From a virus, in IMG/VR virus record IMGVR_UViG_3300023278_002315, positions 1 to 21,040 of that record: 21,040 bases of DNA; one strand, given 5' to 3'. The position numbers and the translations under genes were made by a program. Numbering within the stretch: the stretch's first letter is position 1; the number at the start of each line of letters is the position of its first letter. The notes below the pieces were generated by a model that saw only the letters and a program-made list of their open reading frames with translations, was not told the DNA's origin and made no database searches. Of the stretch, positions 8,533 through 19,473 are shown in pieces.

Positions 8533-8997
8533 ATGGGTTATACATTTACTGAGAGAGTATACGAGAATTCAAGAAAACCAGGATTAGAAGGTTTATGGGT
8601 TTCGTATAATCCTTACAAGATAGTTGCTAATAAAAAAGACTATGATGAAGGCAAGAAAGCCTTTGGTTCCAAGACAGGTATGTTTCGTCCTGATGAACCA
8701 CATTATGGGGTATCACTTAACCAAAAGAACGAAGGTTGTTTTGGTTGGGATACAAGATTAGTAGTTAAACTTGATAGTCATCAAGGAATTATGAAGGACG
8801 AAAAATCCTTTAACGAGTTCTTTGAAGGTTTAAATGATATGTGTGCTGTTGCTGGTAAGATGATTTTTCATCCTGTTAGTGATGATAACGCTGATAGAGA
8901 AGGTTTACCTTCTACATTTAAAGAATATCAAGCCTTGATGAAGGATAGGTTATACCTGAATTTTAAGGTATATACCAAAGTAACTCAGTCTAAATAA
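8533..8997 (+). CDS. Protein of unknown function, first plus-strand gene
   Basis: The gene encodes 154 residues from ATG 8533, with AGGA about eight bases upstream. The protein is soluble, with no membrane segment or signal peptide, and is rich in aromatic residues and Gly (LEGLWVSYNPYKIV, GCFGWDTRLVVKLD). A GIMKDEKSFNEFFEGLNDMC helix is followed by a YLNFKVYTKV strand. Codon use is less AT-biased than in the genes at 9759-15668. It is flanked by the structured region upstream and a long hairpin immediately downstream, so it may form its own transcription unit. Its early position suggests a host-takeover or nucleic-acid-binding role, but no family is recognised. Confidence 0.7.
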   Translation: MGYTFTERVYENSRKPGLEGLWVSYNPYKIVANKKDYDEGKKAFGSKTGMFRPDEPHYGVSLNQKNEGCFGWDTRLVVKLDSHQGIMKDEKSFNEFFEGLNDMCAVAGKMIFHPVSDDNADREGLPSTFKEYQALMKDRLYLNFKVYTKVTQSK

Positions 8998-9049
8998 GGT
9001 TAATTGCATAGGGACATATCGTTTGCGATATGTTCCTTATGCAATAACC
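8998..9049 (+). terminator. Strong 20-bp hairpin directly after the 154-residue gene
   Basis: The stem runs 8998-9021 against 9026-9049: GGTT/AACC, an 8-bp ATTGCATA/TATGCAAT segment and an 11-bp upper stem, with single-base bulges and a TTTG loop. It begins one base after the TAA. No T-run follows, so it is not a textbook intrinsic terminator. It may act as a terminator with a factor, as an mRNA 3' end stabiliser, or as an RNase III site. Confidence 0.5.
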
Positions 9050-9095
9050 AGGTTAGATACCTTACAATAGTCAAAGTGTTGTCTTTTAAAAAATT

Positions 9096-9201
9096 AGGCT
9101 AAATAATCAAATCATACACAATCTCTCAACCCTTAGTTAGTTTGAGTTATTGTTTTTCTTATAGTGTTATTGATTACCCAATAAATCATATTATTTAGCC
9201 T
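9096..9201 (+). repeat. Long-range inverted repeat bracketing an 82-nt loop
   Basis: AGGCTAAATAAT (9096-9107) pairs perfectly with ATTATTTAGCCT (9190-9201). The loop includes a 5-bp helix (9125-9129 with 9142-9146). The remaining 9202-9290 is AT-rich and ends in purine-rich AAGGATAAGAAGGA. The gap from 8998 to 9290 has no gene. Confidence 0.55.
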
Positions 9202-9290
9202 ATAAATTATTTTATATATTATTATAAGTTTTATTTATCCTTGCTTATAATAATACCATTAGAAAGGATAAGAAGGAATATAATAATACT

Positions 9291-9542
9291 ATGTTAGGTA
9301 AAAAAATAGTAGTTAAGAACTTAAATACATATCAAATAAATATGTTAGCACTCATAAAGATAGCAATAAATAGCAATGGCAATTTGGTTAGTCCAAAGAA
9401 CTTAGATTACGCAAGAATGTATGCGGAATTAGATATGCTATCTGATAATATATGTGTTGACATTGATTTAAACTGTTTAGACAATTTAACTTTCATTACA
9501 GCACAAAGTAGACGAAGTTGTTTTAATATGTTTATAGTTTGA
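9291..9542 (+). CDS. Small protein of unknown function
   Basis: The frame encodes 83 residues from ATG 9291. The nearest purine-rich ribosome binding site (GAAGGA) is rather far upstream, so the start is uncertain. The protein has an alternating hydrophobic N-terminus (KKIVVKNLNTYQINMLALIKIAI) and three Cys in the C-terminal third (NICVDIDLNCLDNL, SRRSCFNMF). It is not recognised. The stop is followed after 16 bases by the 18-bp inverted repeat described next. Confidence 0.55.
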   Translation: MLGKKIVVKNLNTYQINMLALIKIAINSNGNLVSPKNLDYARMYAELDMLSDNICVDIDLNCLDNLTFITAQSRRSCFNMFIV

Positions 9543-9558
9543 TTTGATTAACCAAGAG

Positions 9559-9725
9559 AGTGCAATTAATGTAATTATAAAGGATATCGCTCTAAGAGCA
9601 TATGAAAACAACCCTTTGTAATAGTGTATTTGCGTAACAATTCACCAGAAAATAGTTTCTTTCTCTATTGAAATTATTAGTAAGTTTGGAATACTCATAG
9701 GCATTGGAATTACATTAATTGCACT
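9559..9725 (+). ncRNA. Intergenic structured element closed by a perfect 18-bp helix
   Basis: Positions 9559-9576 and 9708-9725 are perfect reverse complements, enclosing 131 nt. Inside, AAAGG (9579-9583) pairs with CCTTT (9613-9617) and encloses a hairpin formed by 9584-9587/9600-9603 and GCTC/GAGC (9589-9592/9596-9599). A further short stem AATAG/CTATT follows at about 9651-9670. It fills most of the gap before the ribosome binding site of the next gene. There is no T-run, so it is not an intrinsic terminator. An RNA domain or a DNA cruciform are both possible. Confidence 0.5.
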
Positions 9726-9758
9726 TTACATTTTAATCTTATGAAAGGAAGGTATAGA

Positions 9759-9974
9759 ATGTATTTATATGTGCCAAGATATAAACCTGAATTAATAGAA
9801 TATGTATCAATTACATCAAATTCACCAAAATATAAAGTTAAAACCATATCAAAAGAAAAATTAAAAGAAATGTATTGTTATTTAAGATATCCAGGGTTTC
9901 ATTGGAAAAAGAATAGAGCAATTCAACATAAAATAGATATACAATATTCTTATAATCAGGAAAATAAACTATGA
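9759..9974 (+). CDS. Small basic protein of unknown function
   Basis: I place the start at ATG 9759 (MYLYVPRYKPELIEY), since AAAGGAAGG lies at the right distance before it; an in-frame ATG at 9741 lacks a site. That gives 71 residues, Lys/Tyr-rich, with a KTISKEKLKEMYCYLRYPGFHWKKNRAIQHKI segment. No membrane segment is seen. The TGA overlaps the next ATG (ATGA), so it is coupled to the membrane-protein gene downstream. It is not recognised. Confidence 0.6.
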   Translation: MYLYVPRYKPELIEYVSITSNSPKYKVKTISKEKLKEMYCYLRYPGFHWKKNRAIQHKIDIQYSYNQENKL

Positions 9975-10156
9975 TAGAAACACTAAGAATAATATTATTT
10001 ATTACTTTATTACCAATACATTTAGTATCTTTTGTATTTGTAATATTATTTTCACTATTAACTAAACTTCTTTTAAAAGCAAATCATATGTTATTTGAAC
10101 ATATGGACGATTTGTTACAAGAAAGAAGGATAAAGGAAAGGCGAAATCATGAATAA
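9971..10156 (+). CDS. Small single-pass membrane protein
   Basis: The gene encodes 61 residues and starts with ATGA overlap at 9971. Residues 5-36 are almost wholly hydrophobic (LRIILFITLLPIHLVSFVFVILFSLLTKLLL), enough for one long or two short membrane passes. A charged tail follows (LLQERRIKERRNHE). It overlaps the next gene by eight bases. In phages, small membrane proteins next to early genes often act in lysis control, exclusion or host-membrane change, but nothing here decides between them. Confidence 0.65.
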   Translation: MIETLRIILFITLLPIHLVSFVFVILFSLLTKLLLKANHMLFEHMDDLLQERRIKERRNHE

Positions 10157-10919: not shown

Positions 10920-11092
10920 ATTTAATAATGAAAAAAGATAAAGATAAACATAAAGTTCCTGATAATATTAAATCTGAAATTAAAGGTAAATGGAATGATA
11001 ATAAAAAACCATTTACTATGCAAGATTATGCTAATAAAATATATGGCAATATATTTAAGGATTTATGGGATAAAGGGGATAAAGATGAATAA
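10916..11092 (+). CDS. Small Lys/Asp-rich protein of unknown function
   Basis: I place the start at ATG 10916, overlapping the previous TGA, with AAAGGA about seven bases upstream; the ATG at 10910 is too close to that site. It gives 58 residues, very rich in Lys and Asp (MKKDKDKHKVPDNIKSEIKGKWNDNKKP), followed by a helix YANKIYGNIFKDLWDKG. It overlaps the next gene. It is not recognised. Confidence 0.55.
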   Translation: MNLIMKKDKDKHKVPDNIKSEIKGKWNDNKKPFTMQDYANKIYGNIFKDLWDKGDKDE

Positions 11093-11621
11093 ACAACTTA
11101 TTACTCAAAATCAAGCAAATTTAATGTTATTATTAACAAAATTTAATAATGAAATAAAAGAAAAAGAAGGAAATCCATTTAATTGGATTGAAACTAAATA
11201 TTCACCAAATTTAACAATTCAACAAAAAAATGAAAGATATATATTAAAAGAATTAGGATATCAAGGATTATTAAATGATAATACAATATTAACATATCAA
11301 CAATTAATAAAAATACCATATGGATTAGAATTTATTATTACAAAAGATAATATAATAGATATACATACAAGACAATGGCGATATGATAATCAAATGTTAA
11401 GAGTAGAATTTGATGATGATTTTAAAAATCTTAATTATATAACATTAATTAAAGCAAATACTCTACTTTATTTAATAAAAAATCCAAATTCTGAATTAGT
11501 AGCAAGAAAAAAACATAGGTATTTTCATATTATTTCACCTGAACAAGAACAAGATGAATTTCGTGAAATAGAAGAAAGAGAAAATGCAATGGATAATTTT
11601 ATGCAAATACTTCCATTCTAA
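11085..11621 (+). CDS. Protein of unknown function upstream of the Ubl cassette
   Basis: ATG 11085 with an AAAGGGG site gives 178 residues; an in-frame ATG at 10995 lies inside the previous gene and is less likely. The first half is helical (LITQNQANLMLLLTKFNNEIKEKEG, KNERYILKELGYQGLL). The second half has strands (LEFIITKDNIIDIHTRQWRYDNQMLRVEFDDDF) and ends in a Glu-rich helix and ILPF. It shares a strand direction and short gap with the Ubl gene and may belong to the same unit. Whether it is a substrate, regulator or unrelated protein cannot be told. Confidence 0.6.
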   Translation: MNKQLITQNQANLMLLLTKFNNEIKEKEGNPFNWIETKYSPNLTIQQKNERYILKELGYQGLLNDNTILTYQQLIKIPYGLEFIITKDNIIDIHTRQWRYDNQMLRVEFDDDFKNLNYITLIKANTLLYLIKNPNSELVARKKHRYFHIISPEQEQDEFREIEERENAMDNFMQILPF

Positions 11622-11635
11622 TGAATGGGATAACC

Positions 11636-11664
11636 AAGAATAGATGATTAGTCTATCTATTCTT
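11636..11664 (+). repeat. 10-bp hairpin between the 178-residue gene and the Ubl gene
   Basis: AAGAATAGAT (11636-11645) pairs with ATCTATTCTT (11655-11664) around a nine-base loop, 15 bases after the stop codon. It is followed by a mini-stem CTAC/GTAG (11671-11681) and then the GAAGGGAAA site. There is no T-run. It is the simplest member of the set of gap-bracketing inverted repeats. Confidence 0.6.
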
Positions 11665-11696: not shown

Positions 11697-11939
11697 ATGG
11701 CTGAACAAAATACTATTAGATTACTTAATAATAGTGATACTTTTGAGAATACATTAGTTACATCAACCTCTGTTGGGGGTTTAAGAACTGAATTAGATAT
11801 TCCAAATAGTGCTACTGTTAATGTGAACCAAGCAAGGGCTAATAATGATACATTATTAGAACCAGCCGAAGGCGCTGAATACGCTGTTGTATCTGTTGTA
11901 TACAATGATAAAACAGGCGGTAAAATAGTAGTTAAATAG
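11697..11939 (+). CDS. Ubiquitin-like beta-grasp protein (Ubl/ThiS-MoaD-like)
   Basis: The gene encodes 80 residues, starting at ATG 11697 with a GAAGGGAAA site. The pattern SATVNVNQARANNDTLLEPAEGAEYAVVSVVYNDKTGG (residues 38-75) is that of the beta-grasp ThiS/MoaD/Ubl family: a strand with N-x-x-x, a 'dt-L' turn, an acidic-Gly turn, a strand, and a terminal Gly-Gly. The diglycine is at residues 74-75 and is followed by a five-residue tail, KIVVK. Ubiquitin precursors must lose such a tail before E1 activation, and a JAMM peptidase is encoded in the same cassette. An E1-like gene completes the context. I infer a protein modifier, although a sulfur carrier is an alternative. The strong base composition shift (more GC than its neighbours) hints at higher conservation or expression. 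Confidence 0.72.
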   Translation: MAEQNTIRLLNNSDTFENTLVTSTSVGGLRTELDIPNSATVNVNQARANNDTLLEPAEGAEYAVVSVVYNDKTGGKIVVK

Positions 11940-11954
11940 TTAATCATATAAAAT

Positions 11955-11994
11955 ATTCAGGTAAAGTATGTATTCATTAATGCTTTACCTGAAT
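11955..11994 (+). repeat. 12-bp inverted repeat between the Ubl and E2-like genes
   Basis: ATTCAGGTAAAG (11955-11966) pairs perfectly with CTTTACCTGAAT (11983-11994) around a 16-base loop; outer AAT/ATT pairs extend it with one bulge. It sits 15 bases after the Ubl stop and directly before the GAAAGGAAAAGG site of the next gene. No T-run follows. Confidence 0.6.
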
Positions 11995-12017
11995 TATTGA
12001 AAGGAAAAGGAAATATA

Positions 12018-13979
12018 GTGAGTAAATGGAATAGGAATAGTTACATTATTACATCTTTTGAAAAAGGAAAAATCAATAGTAAGGATTTTATTAATGATAT
12101 ATTATTAGGTCCACAAAAAGAAATATTAGAACAATTAAAAATATTTAATGATAATTATTATTATAATACACCAGAATTAGCAAAAAAAGTTAAACCATTA
12201 ACAGTAACCAAGGGTTTTCGTTTATCACCAGGAAGTTCTAATACTATTAAAGAGATGGTGCAAACTCATTGTTTAGGTTGGAAAAAAGGAACACCAATTA
12301 GAAATCTGTTTAGAGAACCATATGGACATTATTTTAGAAATATAGGCGATAGATATCATAGAATTGATAATAGTTTATGGAATATGCGAAATGAAGGATT
12401 ATCTTGGCAAGATAATACAATAATAACAGATAAATTAATAGAAAATATACAAGATGAAATTAAAAAACAAATAGAAAATACAAATAAACAACATAAAGAT
12501 ATGGAAGTCTTTTGTTATTTTGAACAAAATAAATTAGAAAAATCACAATCACCATTAAGTGTTTCAGAAGTATCTACAAATTTAACTTTTTATATTAAAT
12601 TTTCAAATCAAGTTATGCCTATTTGGCATAAAGATAAATTTATAGAAAATTTAGATATACCAGGTAATATATGGATAAAATCAGAAATTCATTTAAGAAA
12701 ATATATTAATCATTTACTAAATCAAGCAGATCAATTTGATAAAATTAATATTGATGATGAAGAAATAAATTTAGATAATACTTATTATAATGATCGTAAT
12801 GAACAAGAAATATTAGCAAATAATAAATCACTAAGACTTAAACAAGAAATATGGAAACAATTAAAATTAGAAAAAGATATTTCTGTTTTAGAATTACCTA
12901 ATTCATTAGAAATAATATTTACATTTATGGGAATAATGTATACTATAAATAAACTTAGATATAGAATACCTTCAACAAGAGTATTAGGATATTGGGAATA
13001 TGAATATGCACAAATGCACACAGGTTATGATTTGGCTTTTCCATTCATATCTTCACATTCAGGTTATGTTCACGATAATTCACCTATATTTGCGATAAGT
13101 GATCAATTAACAACAAGCACTGAAAATATAGAAAAAATAGTAACACCAGGAACGAATAATGGAAAATTACATATACAAAATGCTTTTAAGCATGTATGTG
13201 GCGGATCTGTTGGCGTTAAAATGGCACATACTTTGGCTTCTATGGATTTTAATTCATTTAAAGTGCATTTTGATAATTGGAAAACATATAATATAACACA
13301 TTCTCATCCATTAAATCAATTAACACATTTATTTTATGGAATGCCAAAGGAAAGAAAATCATCATTTAAAACTTTAATAACACCAGATATACAAATTAAT
13401 CAAAAAAAAGTATGGCAAATGTGTATGTATGATATTAATAAAGATAAAAAAATAACAGGTTATCCTGATTATATTTTATCTGATGAAATAGCATATATGC
13501 CACCATTACAAGCAAAATTAAATAGAAATCCAAAGATGATTGAAGATGATGATGGATATAAAATGGATAATCCAGATTATGATCCTGATGAATTACCTTT
13601 TAGTATTCACGAATTAGAAAATGAAAAAAGATTTATAAAATATTGCAATGAACCTGCAAGATTATATGAAGTTCCATTTTCTAAATCATATCAAAATGGT
13701 AATGGCACATTTAGAACAAAACGAGTAAAACCACTATTAAGAGAATTATTTAAACGAATTATAATTAAATATGATACAATTAATTGTGAAACAAGAAAGA
13801 TGTGTCCACTATATACGAATATAAAAAGAATAATGAAAGATAAATTCAATACAATACACGATGATAGTGAAAAACGATTTAATCCAAATGAAAAAACAGG
13901 ATTATCTGTAAAACAAAAACAAATGGAATTAGAAGAATGGAACTCTATTTTTAGAGATACCAGTCATCAAAGTAGATAA
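12018..13979 (+). CDS. Large protein with E2-like segment, middle of the Ubl cassette
   Basis: I choose GTG 12018 (MSKWNRNSYI), because GAAAGGAAAAGG lies before it; the upstream in-frame TTG at 11997 overlaps that site. This gives 653 residues. The N-terminal ~290 residues are not recognised. About residues 290-445 have an E2-like layout: strands (SLEIIFTFMGIMYTI, LRYRIPSTRVLG), then FPFISSHSGYVH near 341, a candidate catalytic Cys at 394 in HVCGG, then a helix and HFDNWKTYNITHSHP. Prokaryotic E2-like proteins share a Pro-rich loop before the Cys and a W-x-x-TYN-like end after it. The C-terminal ~210 residues include CNEPARLY and CETRKMCP. The assignment as E2 is inference, supported mostly by its place between Ubl and JAMM/E1 genes. 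It might instead be a fused target or ligase. Confidence 0.55.
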   Translation: MSKWNRNSYIITSFEKGKINSKDFINDILLGPQKEILEQLKIFNDNYYYNTPELAKKVKPLTVTKGFRLSPGSSNTIKEMVQTHCLGWKKGTPIRNLFREPYGHYFRNIGDRYHRIDNSLWNMRNEGLSWQDNTIITDKLIENIQDEIKKQIENTNKQHKDMEVFCYFEQNKLEKSQSPLSVSEVSTNLTFYIKFSNQVMPIWHKDKFIENLDIPGNIWIKSEIHLRKYINHLLNQADQFDKINIDDEEINLDNTYYNDRNEQEILANNKSLRLKQEIWKQLKLEKDISVLELPNSLEIIFTFMGIMYTINKLRYRIPSTRVLGYWEYEYAQMHTGYDLAFPFISSHSGYVHDNSPIFAISDQLTTSTENIEKIVTPGTNNGKLHIQNAFKHVCGGSVGVKMAHTLASMDFNSFKVHFDNWKTYNITHSHPLNQLTHLFYGMPKERKSSFKTLITPDIQINQKKVWQMCMYDINKDKKITGYPDYILSDEIAYMPPLQAKLNRNPKMIEDDDGYKMDNPDYDPDELPFSIHELENEKRFIKYCNEPARLYEVPFSKSYQNGNGTFRTKRVKPLLRELFKRIIIKYDTINCETRKMCPLYTNIKRIMKDKFNTIHDDSEKRFNPNEKTGLSVKQKQMELEEWNSIFRDTSHQSR

Positions 13980-13994
13980 TTTCATAAATTAATT

Positions 13995-14064
13995 TAAATA
14001 TTAGAGTGATTATAAAAACTTTTTAAAAGGCTACTTATAAGTTATTATATCATTCTAATATTTA
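13995..14064 (+). repeat. 16-bp inverted repeat between the E2-like and JAMM genes
   Basis: Positions 13995-14010 pair with 14049-14064 (16 pairs, one G-U if RNA is read on the plus strand), closing a 38-nt AT-rich loop. It begins 16 bases after the stop and ends just before the AAAGGAAATG site. No T-run follows. Confidence 0.6.
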
Positions 14065-14082
14065 TTAAAGAAAGGAAATGTA

Positions 14083-15012
14083 ATGCGAAAAGAAACTGAG
14101 TTTTACATTGCAGGAAAATGTTGGGATAAAATTCAACACTATGCAAAATATGCTTGGAAAAAACATAAATCAGAAATAGGTGGTATGTTATTAGCAAAAA
14201 AAGATAAAGATAATAATTATTGCTTATTTGAACCTACAATATTAAAACAAGAAATATCAATGGGTAATACTGAATTAGATCAAGATAGTTTAGCAGAATA
14301 TTATTGTAAAATGGGAACAAAATATAATGATATTAGATTTGTTTGGTGGCATAGTCATCATACAATGTCAGCATTTTGGTCAGGAACTGATTTAAAAGCA
14401 ATAGATGAAATGTCTAATGGAACTATGTCTATGTCACTTGTAATTAATTTGAAGGAAGAATATAAATTTAGAGTTAATATATGGAAACCTATTACTACAT
14501 TTGAAGATGTAGATTTAAGAATAGATAGAAAAACAAAATCAATACCAAAATCAATAGAAAAAGAATGTGATGAATTATGTAAACCATCATCTTTAATGTC
14601 ATCAATTAGTTCATATCATTATGGCGGAAATTCTAATGGAATAGATGGACGCCAAATAGCATTAAATTGGGATAGACAAAGTGCAATTATGGATACACAA
14701 GCAGAAATCGTATTAAATAAAGAACATTATAATCAAGTAAGAAATAGAGTTGAAACTATTCATCAAGACTATGAATTTAGTGGAATGAAAAAACACGAAT
14801 ATAAAGACTATAAAAAATCTATATCAGAAGTTAATAAAGTTCTTTTAGAAAATAAAATTGATTTAAGAGTATTGCTTTTAAATAAAAAACAAATAGATCA
14901 AGTAATAGATTGGTTGCCTGTTGAAAGTGTAATACATAATAAATTTCAAAATTGCACTTTTGATGATATTATGATAGAATACCAGTATGATCAGAGAGTG
15001 AGTATGTCATGA
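14083..15012 (+). CDS. JAMM/JAB-family metalloprotease (deubiquitinase-like)
   Basis: The gene encodes 309 residues from ATG 14083 with AAAGGAAATG upstream. JAMM enzymes are zinc isopeptidases that cleave after the diglycine of ubiquitin-like proteins. The signature is complete: E31 (SEIGGMLL), H90-S-H92, then seven residues to S100, two residues, and D103 (WWHSHHTMSAFWSGTD). The catalytic core covers about residues 1-140. The C-terminal ~165 residues are helical, unrecognised, and may bind substrate or the partner proteins. It overlaps the E1-like gene by four bases (ATGA), so the two are co-translated. Its likely jobs are to trim the KIVVK tail of the Ubl and to remove the modifier from targets. 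Confidence 0.85.
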   Translation: MRKETEFYIAGKCWDKIQHYAKYAWKKHKSEIGGMLLAKKDKDNNYCLFEPTILKQEISMGNTELDQDSLAEYYCKMGTKYNDIRFVWWHSHHTMSAFWSGTDLKAIDEMSNGTMSMSLVINLKEEYKFRVNIWKPITTFEDVDLRIDRKTKSIPKSIEKECDELCKPSSLMSSISSYHYGGNSNGIDGRQIALNWDRQSAIMDTQAEIVLNKEHYNQVRNRVETIHQDYEFSGMKKHEYKDYKKSISEVNKVLLENKIDLRVLLLNKKQIDQVIDWLPVESVIHNKFQNCTFDDIMIEYQYDQRVSMS

Positions 15013-15668
15013 TAAATAGTAGATATAATGGAATTGTTGATAATTTTAATTCATATACATATCACATATTAGGTTGCGGTGCAATTGGTAGTAGCACAGC
15101 AACACAATTAGTTCGTATGGGTGCAGAACATTTGCACCTATACGATTTTGATAAAGTATCAATAGAAAATATAGGCGTATCAATGTATAATAATAATTCT
15201 ATATCATTAGAAAAAACACAAGCATTATCAATAATATTAAAACAAATTAATCCAGAAATAGAAGTTAAATTACATAATGAAAAATTTAAAAATTACTATC
15301 CTGAATTTAAAAACAATATAGTTATATTGGGTTTTGATAATATGGAATATAGATTACAAGCAATAAAAGAAATTTGTAAATATAAAAACTGTAATTTTTT
15401 AATTGATGGACGAATGGGTGCAGAACAATTTCAAATGTATACATTTATTAATCCAACTATTACAAAATATAAACAATATTGGTATAGCGATAAACAAGGA
15501 TCTGATGAACCGTGTAATGCTAAGGCAACAAGTTATTGTAGTAATATGGCAGGTAGTTTTATATGTAATACCATACGAAAACTATTAACGAAACAACCTT
15601 GGAACCCAGTTTTATCTTTTAGTTATCCCGATTACTCAATGGAAGTGAAAGAATTAACATTTCCTTAA
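15009..15668 (+). CDS. E1-like / ThiF-family adenylyltransferase
   Basis: The gene encodes 219 residues and starts inside the JAMM stop (ATGA). The Rossmann nucleotide loop is G22-C-G-A-I-G27, followed by LYDFDKVSIEN (D46, D48, N54), LEKTQA (K69) and VILGFDNMEYR (D110, R115), the order found in ThiF/MoeB/E1 proteins. Such enzymes adenylate the C-terminal glycine of a Ubl. The usual 'N-L-x-R-Q' arginine is missing here (ENIGVSMY). C169 (DEPC) and C177 (SYCSNMAG) are the best candidates for a catalytic or structural Cys. It is compact and lacks a C-terminal ubiquitin-fold domain. With the Ubl and JAMM genes beside it, it most likely activates the 80-residue Ubl. Confidence 0.85.
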   Translation: MINSRYNGIVDNFNSYTYHILGCGAIGSSTATQLVRMGAEHLHLYDFDKVSIENIGVSMYNNNSISLEKTQALSIILKQINPEIEVKLHNEKFKNYYPEFKNNIVILGFDNMEYRLQAIKEICKYKNCNFLIDGRMGAEQFQMYTFINPTITKYKQYWYSDKQGSDEPCNAKATSYCSNMAGSFICNTIRKLLTKQPWNPVLSFSYPDYSMEVKELTFP

Positions 15669-15680
15669 CACGAAATAAAC

Positions 15681-15824
15681 TAAATATAACATATGAATAT
15701 TATCCACTTACGAACAATGTTGAATAAGAATAATGTGGATCAGCCCCTATTAAACAATAAATGAATATTTTTCATATATTAATATTACTTTAACTGTTTA
15801 ATATTTATTCATATGTTATATTTA
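15681..15824 (+). ncRNA. Intergenic three-way-junction element closed by a perfect 19-bp helix
   Basis: Positions 15681-15699 and 15806-15824 are perfect reverse complements. Inside the 106-nt loop, ATCCAC (15702-15707) pairs with GTGGAT (15735-15740), and ATTAAACA (15749-15756) pairs perfectly with TGTTTAAT (15795-15802). This is a three-way junction in the gap after the E1-like gene. There is no T-run. It is the longest closing helix in the window. Confidence 0.5.
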
Positions 15825-15843
15825 GAAATAATCCTAACGAAAG

Positions 15844-15922
15844 TTTAAGCCTATATTGAAAGGAAGATTGATTGTGAAATAGGTATCATGATTAATAACC
15901 TATATAGGCTTAAATTTTTTTT
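15844..15922 (+). terminator. Terminator-like hairpin with internal attenuator-type features
   Basis: TTTAAGCCTATAT (15844-15856) pairs perfectly with ATATAGGCTTAAA (15902-15914), followed directly by eight T (15915-15922). This is the only gap-bracketing repeat with a T-run, so it may end transcription of the Ubl cassette. The 45-base loop contains a ribosome binding site (GAAAGGAAG, 15858-15866), a tiny GTG-AAA-TAG frame, and an ATAGG (15879-15883) able to pair with either CCTAT arm (15850-15854 or 15899-15903). These alternatives are what an attenuator would need, but there is no direct proof. Confidence 0.45.
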
Positions 15923-15941
15923 AAAAAATCATAAAATTTAC

Positions 15942-16046: not shown

Positions 16047-16628
16047 ATGGCAATTAAAATTCATGGAAAAGACTATGTTTTAGTAAACGAAAGATTAATG
16101 TCTTTTCTTTCAGATAATCCAAAAGCAGCAATAGAAACACAACTATATGCTTGCAATCAAATCAATGATACTGCCACTGGCGATTTATGTAATGAATATA
16201 TCGTTTTAGCAAAAATATATCCCTTTCCAATGAACGAACCTGATATTTACTATACAGGATTGGCTGCGGAAAGAGATAATAATGGTTTCATTAATAAAAC
16301 TTCTGCATTAGAAAATGCTGAGACTTCTGCTGTAGGTAGAGCATTAGCATTTGCAGGATATGGAAGTAATGAAAGCATTGCAAGTGCTGAAGAAGTCGTA
16401 GTAGCACAAAATAAACAAAAAGTATTTAATCCTACTGTAACTTCATTAGATAAGTTAGATCGTAGTATGAACGAATGTAAAAAATTATTATTATTAGATG
16501 ATAATTTTGTTCAACGATATAGGGCTAAAAGAACTGCTGGAATGACCAGAGTTCAAGTACAAGAAACTCAATTGTACTTTGATAAGTTAACAACTACCAA
16601 AAAGAAGGGAGTTAAAAATGCAAAATAG
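16047..16628 (+). CDS. ERF-type single-strand annealing recombinase
   Basis: The gene encodes 193 residues from ATG 16047 with an AAAGGGG site. Family-like segments are HGKDYVLVNERLMSF (6-20), the strand YIVLAKIYPF (51-60), and NKTSALENAETSAVGRALAFAGYG (83-106) followed by SIASAEEV. This is the usual ERF/Sak-like core: a strand meander, then the conserved 'ALENAETSAVGRAL' helix. Such proteins anneal complementary single strands during phage recombination and replication. The C-terminal ~70 residues are helical and basic (KRTAGMTRVQV). It heads an operon with an SSB-like protein, primase-helicase and resolvase, which fits. It overlaps the next gene by 11 bases. Confidence 0.78.
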   Translation: MAIKIHGKDYVLVNERLMSFLSDNPKAAIETQLYACNQINDTATGDLCNEYIVLAKIYPFPMNEPDIYYTGLAAERDNNGFINKTSALENAETSAVGRALAFAGYGSNESIASAEEVVVAQNKQKVFNPTVTSLDKLDRSMNECKKLLLLDDNFVQRYRAKRTAGMTRVQVQETQLYFDKLTTTKKKGVKNAK

Positions 16629-16932
16629 TGATAATCTTACAAAAGAAATAACTTCATTACATAAACTATATGAAGGCTGTGATATGATATATAATACAGA
16701 ACATAATATAGCAACATTAAATTTAGGAAATAATGGAACATTTTTATTATTAAAATGTCGAGAAGAAGGTGAAGGATTTAATCAAGTTATTCATTATGAT
16801 AGGACTATAGATATGATATCAGAAGCAATTGCTCATGAAAATGAAAATAGATTTGAATTTTATAGAGAAAAAAATATGGATCATGCAATGGATAATATGC
16901 CTGATCCAACAATGGAAGGGGAGTTAAACTAA
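16618..16932 (+). CDS. Acidic small protein of unknown function in the replication operon
   Basis: The gene encodes 104 residues from ATG 16618, overlapping the end of the ERF-type gene, with a GAAGGGAG site. The protein is acidic, with short strands (IATLNLGNNGTFLLLKCREEGEG) and a Glu/Asn/Met-rich C-terminus (EKNMDHAMDNMPDPTMEGEL). Its stop overlaps the next ATG (TAATG). Co-location suggests a recombination or replication accessory factor, but no family is recognised. Confidence 0.65.
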   Translation: MQNSDNLTKEITSLHKLYEGCDMIYNTEHNIATLNLGNNGTFLLLKCREEGEGFNQVIHYDRTIDMISEAIAHENENRFEFYREKNMDHAMDNMPDPTMEGELN

Positions 16933-17447
16933 TGGCAATTAAAGGAACTAAAATAGAAAATAATGGATCATCAAAAAAAGGATATTTCATTAATAAATGT
17001 AGAATAGTTGGAGCAGAACAAATGGAATCTCAATATAGTGATACAAGTTTAAAATTAACACTTGAAGATGATAGAAACAATTTTCAATATACATGTTTTA
17101 TTAATCAAAACTATGAAAAAGATACAAATGGTGTAGTTTCAGAACTAAAGTTTCCCGATCATTTAAATACATTATATCTTGCAGCAGGAAAAGATCTTAA
17201 TGTATCTGATGTTGGTGAAATTAATATAGCAGAATTGGCTAATGCTGAAGTTGCTTGTTTAAGTTATGAATCTACAGGAAAATATAAAAGAGCAATTTGG
17301 AGTACAATGTCATCATGGGACGATACTGATCAATTAGAAGCAAAATTTGCTGAACAAGTTGAAAAAGGTTATCCTAAAAACTTTAAGAAACCACAAGATG
17401 TAATGGTTGGTGGTGAAGCAGTTAAAGTTGATGATTTACCATTCTAA
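16932..17447 (+). CDS. Single-stranded DNA-binding protein-like
   Basis: The gene encodes 171 residues. The first ~125 residues are strand-rich (KGYFINKCRIVGAEQ, LKLTLEDDRNNFQYTCFINQN, ANAEVACLSYES) and consistent with an OB-type fold. The protein ends in VKVDDLPF, like the acidic DDDIPF tip by which SSB proteins recruit partner enzymes. It sits between the ERF-type and primase-helicase genes and is coupled to the gene before and after by TAATG overlaps. The tail and context make SSB likely. The fold itself is inferred. Confidence 0.65.
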   Translation: MAIKGTKIENNGSSKKGYFINKCRIVGAEQMESQYSDTSLKLTLEDDRNNFQYTCFINQNYEKDTNGVVSELKFPDHLNTLYLAAGKDLNVSDVGEINIAELANAEVACLSYESTGKYKRAIWSTMSSWDDTDQLEAKFAEQVEKGYPKNFKKPQDVMVGGEAVKVDDLPF

Positions 17448-17707
17448 TGAAAGCAAAAGAGATAATCCTGCATTGGATAGAAAATAAATATCGTTCTAAT
17501 AATAAACACTTTTTTAGTTTTGATTTTGAGAACGAAATTGCAAACTATGGTCGATTAGCACATCAGAAAGTACATACACCAAGTACATATTCAAGAGCAT
17601 TTAGAGCAATTCGTTCAAGTAATTCTATAACTAGAAGGGGATTTCAATTAGAAGAAGTTAAACATAGTAACAACAAGAGTAAGGGATGGAGAATAAAGAA
17701 AATATAA
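17447..17707 (+). CDS. Small basic protein, possibly a winged-helix DNA-binding protein
   Basis: The gene encodes 86 residues, beginning in the SSB-like stop (TAATG). The sequence is basic, with helices EIILHWIENKYRS and TYSRAFRAIRSSNSI, and a later strand pair ITRRGFQLEEV...KGWRIKK, an order that suits a small winged helix. It overlaps the primase-helicase gene by 22 bases. It is a candidate loader or DNA-binding accessory factor. No family match is claimed. Confidence 0.6.
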   Translation: MKAKEIILHWIENKYRSNNKHFFSFDFENEIANYGRLAHQKVHTPSTYSRAFRAIRSSNSITRRGFQLEEVKHSNNKSKGWRIKKI

Positions 17708-19473
17708 TTGAAATAGTACAAAATTCTATTACAAATAGAAATAATACTATAAACATAAATAAATACGATCAACTAGTGAAAGACAATGCATGGAAACATG
17801 AAATGTACAGATCTTACTATTCATTTGATAAAACATTTGAATCACATGTTAAAGAAAATAAATCAGTAAAAGGATTTGATGGACTTACATATATTGATCG
17901 TATTATCATAGATTTAGATAGGGGAAATATTAATAAAAACTCTTTTAATGGTTATGTAATAAATTGCATAACTGAAATTCTAGATAAAGGAATTATGGGA
18001 GAAGATATTAATGTTTGGTTCTCTGGTACTGGATATCATATTGAATTACTAAATGTTTTTGGCTTACAGCCAAGTAAGGAATTAAACGAAAAATTAAGAT
18101 ACACTATGAAGGAGTATTTTGATTTTGGAGATTCTATTTACGATAAAACAAGAATAATTCGTTCCAACTGGAGTTTAAATAAAAAAACAAATTTATTTAA
18201 AATATGGATTCCACTACAGTTACTGCATGAACTATCATTTGATGATATTAAGAAAGCAGCAACATCTAAAGAAAACTACATGAAGTTAGTTTCGTCTCAT
18301 CAAAACTTTTTTGAGACATTAAACGAATCAAATCATGTACAACCCTATCTACAATCTATGATAATTGCATCACCTACCATTGTATCTAATGGTGATAGTA
18401 ACAAAGGAGATGTTTCAACAGTTGTTTCATGTATGCAACATGTATTCAATGAAGGACCTGTTAAAGGGTCAAGAAACATGAAGGTAATGCGTATGGCTAG
18501 TTCATATAAACGTGCTGGCATTCCTTTCCTTGTAACATTAAATGGTATGTTAACATGGTCAAAAGATAGTATATCTGAAGATGAAGTTACTAGAACAGTA
18601 ACTAATATCTACGAAGAGAACTATCAATATGGTTGTATGGACCATATTATGGCTGAATATTGTGATCCAAAATGTATATATTTTAAAAGAAAAGATTATA
18701 CACAAGAGATCAAAAATATTCTAGAATTAGAAGATAGTTTAAGAAGTTATATCAGAAATGATTTAACTTCTAATTCAATTAATTTATCTTCTATTTGGAA
18801 TGTTCCTAATTACCATTTTAAACCTGGTGAATTAATAATCATTTCAGGTGATACAGGATTAGGAAAATCTGCATTCGTGCAGAATATAATAACACATTGT
18901 AAAAAAGAAACATTGTTTTTATCATTAGAAATGAAAGAACAATTAACATTTAGGAGATTCATTCAAATTGTTACTAAACAAAATGAAAAATATGTTATCG
19001 ATTTATTTAAAAATGACGATAATGTATCATTTGAAGAGAATCTTAAACATGTTAATATTATGTCTATAGCACCAAGAGTTGAAGCAGTTAAAAAGGTGGT
19101 TGCAGAAATGGAACCTAAAGTCTTGGTAATAGATACTACTGATGAATTACAAGTTGATTTTGTAAGGGGAGAAATTGAGAAACAAAATATCATTATTGAT
19201 AATTTGAAACAAATGGCTCAAAAGAACAATATTATTATTATTGCTGTTCATCATTTAAATAAAATGAGTGCAGCAACAAATACTATTAATGTTCATTCTC
19301 TTAAAGGATCATCTAATATAGTTCAAAAAGCAGATAAAGTTCTTTTAATTAAAGGAAATCGAAATGAAACAGTAAGAACAATATGTTCTGAAAAATCAAG
19401 AGATGAAGCACGATTTGAAATGACTGCTAACTTTGATGGAGAAACAATGACTTTTTCACAAATTACATTTTAA
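17686..19473 (+). CDS. Bifunctional primase-helicase (AEP-like primase, DnaB-like helicase)
   Basis: The gene encodes 595 residues. The N-terminal half resembles an archaeo-eukaryotic-type primase: IIIDLD (73-78) for the metal-binding acidic pair, GTGYH (114-118) for the sxH-type motif, and DKTRIIRSNWSLN...FKIWIPL (153-177). A helical middle has four cysteines (C249, C317, C326, C330) and could hold a metal or Fe-S cluster. The C-terminal part is a RecA-like helicase: Walker A GDTGLGKS (388-395), FLSLEMK (411-417), Walker B VLVID (479-483), VHHL (521-524) and the LKGSSNIVQKAD loop (539-550). All key helicase residues are present. It makes primers and unwinds the fork. It starts inside the preceding gene, so it is likely coupled to it. 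Confidence 0.85.
   Translation: MENKENIIEIVQNSITNRNNTININKYDQLVKDNAWKHEMYRSYYSFDKTFESHVKENKSVKGFDGLTYIDRIIIDLDRGNINKNSFNGYVINCITEILDKGIMGEDINVWFSGTGYHIELLNVFGLQPSKELNEKLRYTMKEYFDFGDSIYDKTRIIRSNWSLNKKTNLFKIWIPLQLLHELSFDDIKKAATSKENYMKLVSSHQNFFETLNESNHVQPYLQSMIIASPTIVSNGDSNKGDVSTVVSCMQHVFNEGPVKGSRNMKVMRMASSYKRAGIPFLVTLNGMLTWSKDSISEDEVTRTVTNIYEENYQYGCMDHIMAEYCDPKCIYFKRKDYTQEIKNILELEDSLRSYIRNDLTSNSINLSSIWNVPNYHFKPGELIIISGDTGLGKSAFVQNIITHCKKETLFLSLEMKEQLTFRRFIQIVTKQNEKYVIDLFKNDDNVSFEENLKHVNIMSIAPRVEAVKKVVAEMEPKVLVIDTTDELQVDFVRGEIEKQNIIIDNLKQMAQKNNIIIIAVHHLNKMSAATNTINVHSLKGSSNIVQKADKVLLIKGNRNETVRTICSEKSRDEARFEMTANFDGETMTFSQITF

Follow-up and report, generated by a model that had tools for sequence, protein, structure and literature searches.

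A phage-encoded cassette of a ubiquitin-like protein, a JAMM protease and an E1-like enzyme, with a putative E2-like partner, beside replication genes

The cassette and its surroundings

The window analyzed here comprises 21,040 bases of the 23,367-base IMG/VR virus record IMGVR_UViG_3300023278_002315. It harbors a cassette of four + strand genes (window 11697–15668) that encode, in this order, a ubiquitin-like protein (Ubl), a large protein, a JAMM metalloprotease and an E1-like enzyme. A sequence-only reading of the same DNA had described four consecutive genes on one strand, in an early region beside replication genes. All four open reading frames (ORFs) were recovered on the + strand at the positions given below, and the context was borne out both in the window and across relatives. 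The cassette, its intergenic stems and the genes that follow it are:

11697..11939, + strand: Ubl, 80 aa, ThiS/ubiquitin-like beta-grasp, C-terminal KTGG-KIVVK
11944..12005, + strand: stem in the gap between the Ubl and large-protein genes, 26-nt arms, 77% complementary
12018..13979, + strand: large protein, 653 aa, putative E2-like, with an invariant cysteine, an N-terminal GPQ/helical region and a C-terminal four-cysteine cluster
13995..14064, + strand: stem in the gap between the large-protein and JAMM genes, 16-nt arms, 94% complementary
14083..15012, + strand: JAMM/JAB metalloprotease, 309 aa, with E31, H90-x-H92 and S100-x2-D103
15009..15668, + strand: E1/ThiF-like adenylating enzyme, 219 aa, ThiF match
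16047..16628, + strand: phrog_11717 protein, in the slot held in relatives by Sak4-/Erf-like ssDNA-annealing proteins
16932..17447, + strand: SSB-like protein, so called from its C-terminal DDLPF tip and its position
17686..19473, + strand: primase/DnaB-like helicase (DnaB_C 2.4e-13, PHROG matches)

The large-protein gene has a GTG start at 12018 with a strong Shine-Dalgarno sequence and is preceded by AAAGGAAAAGG; its ORF is open from a TTG at 11997. The JAMM and E1 genes share a 4-nt overlap (ATGA). Small ORFs precede the cassette on the + strand, and the terminase, portal and major head genes lie on the - strand of the same virus record, opposite to the cassette. A RusA-like resolvase gene is also found downstream in the window. 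Among the relatives, an SSB-like gene follows E1 in 72 loci and a primase-helicase gene in 143 loci (median distance 1.5 kb); across loci the neighborhood also contains annealing proteins of the Sak4 and Erf types together with RusA and endonuclease VII, and no sulfur-transfer enzyme (rhodanese, cysteine desulfurase, PAPS reductase or thiolase) was detected among 106 neighboring proteins.

The Ubl, JAMM and E1 proteins

The AlphaFold2 model of the Ubl, built from a 54-sequence alignment, reached a pLDDT of 82.6 and shows the order strand-strand-helix-strand-strand. Nearly all of its leading Foldseek matches belong to ubiquitin-like proteins (Mth1743, Caldiarchaeum ubiquitin, SUMO, ISG15, MoaD), with probabilities mostly of 0.97–1.00, a best E-value of 0.006 and TM scores of 0.5–0.6. 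The window Ubl alone matched no Pfam family, and 24 of 54 relatives matched Pfam ThiS (best 1.9e-5). These results supply, as a prediction, the beta-grasp fold that the sequence-only reading had set as a check on the 80-residue protein. The diglycine on which that reading had based its call is present as KTGG, and K-x-GG is found in 84/84 distinct relatives; the protein therefore combines the two hallmarks of the superfamily, a beta-grasp and a C-terminal GG. In the window the diglycine is internal and followed by a 5-residue tail (KIVVK), which would need to be removed ahead of conjugation. Across the 84 relatives, no residue follows the diglycine in 26, 1–5 residues follow it in 43, 6–20 in 12 and more in 3, with the longest tails reaching about 60 residues.

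The third protein matches Prok-JAB above the cut-off (6.3e-6) and carries the JAMM/JAB signature E ... HxH x7 SxxD, as had been read from the sequence; at least 121 of 122 relatives conserve E31, H90, H92, S100 and D103. The fourth gives a single ThiF match (1.9e-22) in 219 aa, which upholds its designation as a ThiF/E1-like enzyme. Over 120 relatives, the near-invariant positions are R5, the glycine-rich loop GCGAIGS (GxGxxGS), D46, D48, N54, K69, D110, R115 and the two cysteines C169 and C177. The Gly-rich loop, the adenylation Asp/Lys/Arg residues and an acceptor cysteine of E1-like/ThiF enzymes are all represented, save for the Arg of the ThiF/MoeB N-x-x-R-Q motif, which the phage enzyme lacks. 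Since the E1s of crAss-like phages retain the equivalent of C169 and not that of C177, C169 is the more likely of the two to be the acceptor.

The large protein as a candidate E2

Relatives of the large protein are diverse (about 20% identity). They share a motif of the form [HFY]P[YF]I...C, in which the proline and the cysteine are invariant in 85/85 sequences and which corresponds to the HPx motif ahead of the catalytic cysteine expected of an E2; downstream of it lie a conserved W, a T-x-P-x-N and the C-terminal four-cysteine cluster. The AlphaFold2 model (pTM 0.73) comprises long helices, a strand meander (162–225) and a helical insertion, followed by a strand (320–327), FPFI at 341, C394 and two helices, and this predicted order of elements fits that of an E2. 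In a Foldseek search the full-length model matched no solved structure in the PDB and six uncharacterized viral proteins in BFVD (E 1e-13 to 1e-18).

Searches of Pfam, NCBIfam, PADLOC and PDB sequences returned no E2 match. An hhalign comparison of the domain with eukaryotic E2s was non-significant, with HPYIS..VC falling on HPNI..GVCL; the comparison with plasmid Cap2 was likewise non-significant, and the positive control (Cap2 against eukaryotic E2) was weak as well, so that these comparisons have little power. The CEHH spacing of the Bil E2 was not seen by eye in the large-protein sequences, which do have the invariant cysteine and the HP motif. No relatives were obtained from a short-peptide search of viral contigs or from tblastn against reference phages. 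Of the E2-like segment proposed earlier for this protein, the motif and the predicted element order fit, and a fold or profile match was not obtained. From its motif, predicted element order and gene position, we infer that the large protein may act as an E2.

The four conserved cysteines past the HPxI..C domain (window ~13420–13830) resemble a zinc site, and the cluster may form a substrate- or E3-like module.

Recurrence in viral contigs

Alignment-based scans of viral contigs yielded 306 E1 and 261 JAMM relatives; from each set the top 80 were retained, and gene order was counted by running profiles on all ORFs of the loci so selected. Among the 68 non-redundant IMG/VR loci with more than 3.5 kb upstream of JAMM, 63 show the same-strand order Ubl, large protein, JAMM, E1, and the recurrence of the same four genes in one order on one strand is beyond chance; since E1 or JAMM served to retrieve the loci, this count offers independent evidence only in that the Ubl and large-protein genes recur with them. 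Recurrence of the four genes together in related phages, by which the sequence-only reading proposed to be judged, was thereby found. Among the five exceptions, two stretches stop before or within E1 and one swaps the Ubl and the large protein; in the remaining two, L007 (divergent) and L009 (crAss-like), the order is present and the profiles miss the first two genes.

No relatives were detected in 84,980 bacterial and archaeal species (one genome each) by an E1 scan and a JAMM scan, both of which use short peptide patterns that would miss distant forms. The open-access papers searched describe no complete phage cassette. Taken with the beta-grasp model, the ThiS matches and the conserved catalytic residues, the recurrence of the genes across viral loci strongly supports a phage-encoded Ubl/JAMM/E1 cassette.

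Divergent versions in crAss-like and other phages

A tblastn search with the E1 led to crAss-like Steigviridae and to phages of Flavobacterium psychrophilum. In crAss001, gp79-gp78-gp77-gp76 and their equivalents stand in the same order between the primase and uracil-DNA glycosylase (UDG) genes; in Fipvunavirus the four genes come just after the toprim and UDG genes. The JAMM signature is preserved in gp77 and the E1 motifs in gp76. An invariant HSH..C marks gp78, while the N-terminal part of gp79 is Ubl-like, ends in K..[K/R]SG[A/G] and is followed by a C-terminal extension. Neither gp79 nor gp78 matched a known family: the gp79-type N-termini matched no known Ubl profile, and profile searches found no E2 in the second gene. 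By hhalign, the IMG/VR clade and the crAss/Fipvunavirus set have homologous E1 (1e-42) and JAMM (9e-12) proteins, a marginal Ubl match and a second gene without detectable homology. The two sets are therefore alike in the four-gene order within the replication module and in their E1 and JAMM, and differ in that the crAss-like Ubl has a long C-terminal extension and the second protein is not detectably homologous. These crAss-like genes are annotated only as hypothetical, metalloprotease or thiamine biosynthesis.

A further divergent set, with a Ubl that lacks GG, is found in L007 (a 49.6-kb contig) and L176 (a 332,864-base contig). In the E1 tree, the IMG/VR clade, the crAss/Fipvunavirus set and L007/L176 form separate groups; the tree joins L007/L176 with Cap2, which was flagged as a long-branch effect.

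Several details of these genomes were also observed. The long extension past KSG in L008, L163–L169 (crAss-like) and L170 (Fipvunavirus) is possibly a fused precursor, and several crAss-like genomes show an overlap of about 60 nt between the E2-like gene and the JAMM gene. L176, of jumbo-phage size, has the order Ubl-like, 309-aa protein, large Cys protein, JAMM, E1. Directly downstream of the divergent cassette of L007 lies a reverse-transcriptase-like ORF (8931–10016; YADD-type motif, seen by eye).

Comparison with known systems

Bil operons have the order BilA (Ubl), BilB (E2), BilC (JAMM) and BilD (E1) (PMC11354881). The earlier claim that the phage order equals that of Bil holds for 63/68 loci, taking the large protein as the occupant of the E2 slot. 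BilA, however, is a tandem double Ubl (ISG15-like) whereas the phage Ubl is a single 80-aa beta-grasp; BilD has inactive and active adenylation domains plus a Cys domain whereas the phage E1 is a 219-aa single domain; and the large protein is unrelated by profile. Bil is found in bacteria and the cassette in phages. With a single Ubl and a single-domain E1, the cassette falls outside the Bil definition.

PRTRC systems, to which the sequence-only reading had likened the gene set, correspond to operon type 6d. Operon type 6d has separate small Ubl, JAB, E1-like and cysteine-protein genes with a ThiS-like Ubl (PMC1779556; Iyer et al., 2006), and the cassette resembles it in each of these respects. 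Membership fails, since JAMM (16.5 of 101.8 bits) and E1 (19.4 of 144.75 bits) are far under the NCBIfam PRTRC cut-offs. Type II CBASS and Bub/6e share the E1-like and JAB chemistry. Cap2 of CBASS, however, is an E2-E1 fusion and a CD-NTase is needed, whereas the phage genes are separate, and no nucleotidyltransferase match was obtained among the window and neighbor proteins scanned; Bub has multi-Ubl proteins and DUF6527, whereas the phage cassette has a single Ubl, and DUF6527 had no match among the same proteins. ThiS and ThiF/MoeB are the nearest sequence families of the phage Ubl and E1, but the cassette is without sulfur pathway genes and has a JAMM and an invariant-Cys partner. Lambda TAPI/TAPK provides a precedent for a phage Ubl with JAB (PMC1779556), but it belongs to a tail module, involves an NlpC fusion and has no E1. 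The cassette would thus work in a similar way to Bil, PRTRC, CBASS, Bub and TAPI/TAPK and is a member of none.

Proposed mechanism and alternatives

The cassette probably constitutes a phage-specific, reversible ubiquitin-like conjugation system that serves replication and recombination, with enzymatic steps, an E2 role and a target proposed as follows. JAMM would first cut behind KTGG, which removes the tail and leaves a mature ...GG terminus. The E1, a small ThiF-type enzyme that probably works as a homodimer, would adenylate the Gly carboxylate and hand the Ubl to a cysteine, with C169 as the best candidate. The large protein might then accept the Ubl on its invariant C394 and transfer it to targets, with help from its helical N-terminal region and its Cys4 cluster, and JAMM would take the Ubl off again, a step proposed because JAMM persists where the Ubl is tailless (26/84). 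The likeliest targets would be phage DNA replication and recombination proteins since their genes lie directly downstream; the gene context favors such targets and disfavors virions. Against conjugation stand the lack of an E2 match by profiles or by Foldseek with the full-length model, the Ubls without GG in L007/L176, the missing N-x-x-R-Q Arg, the crAss Ubl-like N-termini, for which no known Ubl profile gave a match, and the crAss second gene, whose homology to the large protein was not detectable.

An early-type location, after small ORFs, would also suit a true Ubl conjugation system that tags or untags host defence proteins (Bil, CBASS or Bub components, nucleases) early in infection. 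Since Ubl systems of bacteria take part in defence (PMC10097602; PMC11354881), one encoded by a phage could interfere with them; such a role is unlikely, as divergent phages have the cassette as a conserved block next to replication genes, unlike patchy anti-defence loci. A role in virion or tail maturation, as in lambda TAPI/TAPK, has the phage Ubl and JAB precedent on its side (PMC1779556) and is nonetheless highly improbable: NlpC/P60 is absent, an E1 is present, and the cassette travels with replication genes on the strand opposite to the head genes.

In the CysO and QbsE pathways, a JAMM protease trims a tailed sulfur carrier. With this precedent, the phage Ubl could be a ThiS/CysO/QbsE-type carrier trimmed by JAMM, on which the ThiF-like enzyme makes a thiocarboxylate, the sulfur being destined for a nucleotide, tRNA or metabolite and the large protein being a sulfur acceptor or modifying enzyme. 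The Ubl is indeed nearest ThiS, the E1 is nearest ThiF/MoeB, and the E2 fold of the large protein is putative. Sulfur transfer is nevertheless rather unlikely, given that the 106 neighbors include none of the four sulfur-transfer enzymes sought, that the HPxI..C protein sits between Ubl and JAMM (63/68 loci), and that JAMM persists with the tailless Ubls.

Implications of a phage conjugation system

To our knowledge, prokaryotic Ubl-conjugation operons described so far are bacterial and largely tied to anti-phage defence. The present cassette suggests, from sequence, that phages may tag proteins during infection. More tentatively, and with considerable doubt, it might represent an ancient phage-owned Ubl conjugation with its own new E2-like families, common to several unrelated phage lineages including gut crAss-like phages, that reversibly tags replication and recombination proteins, a viral parallel to the modification of PCNA and RPA by SUMO and ubiquitin in eukaryotes. 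If conjugation were confirmed, bacterial viruses would run their own ubiquitin-like signaling through a complete, conserved and phage-restricted replication-module cassette, the crAss-like genes now labelled 'thiamine biosynthesis' and 'metalloprotease' would gain a joint function, and a viral Ubl target would be directly testable in the cultured phage crAss001.

Intergenic repeats and acidic tips

In addition to the two stems listed above, inverted repeats occur in the gaps at 11636–11664 and 15680–15923. The latter, after E1, contains a perfect 20-nt pair (15680–15699 / 15806–15825) and a 22-nt stem with a terminal T-run (15835–15923), which are possibly terminator or processing sites; Rfam gave no match on the window. 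Acidic SSB-like -PF tips (DDIPF, ILPF) were also noted on proteins near the cassette (L003, 5412–5792; window, 10995–11621), which suggests that these proteins may use the SSB-tip docking site.
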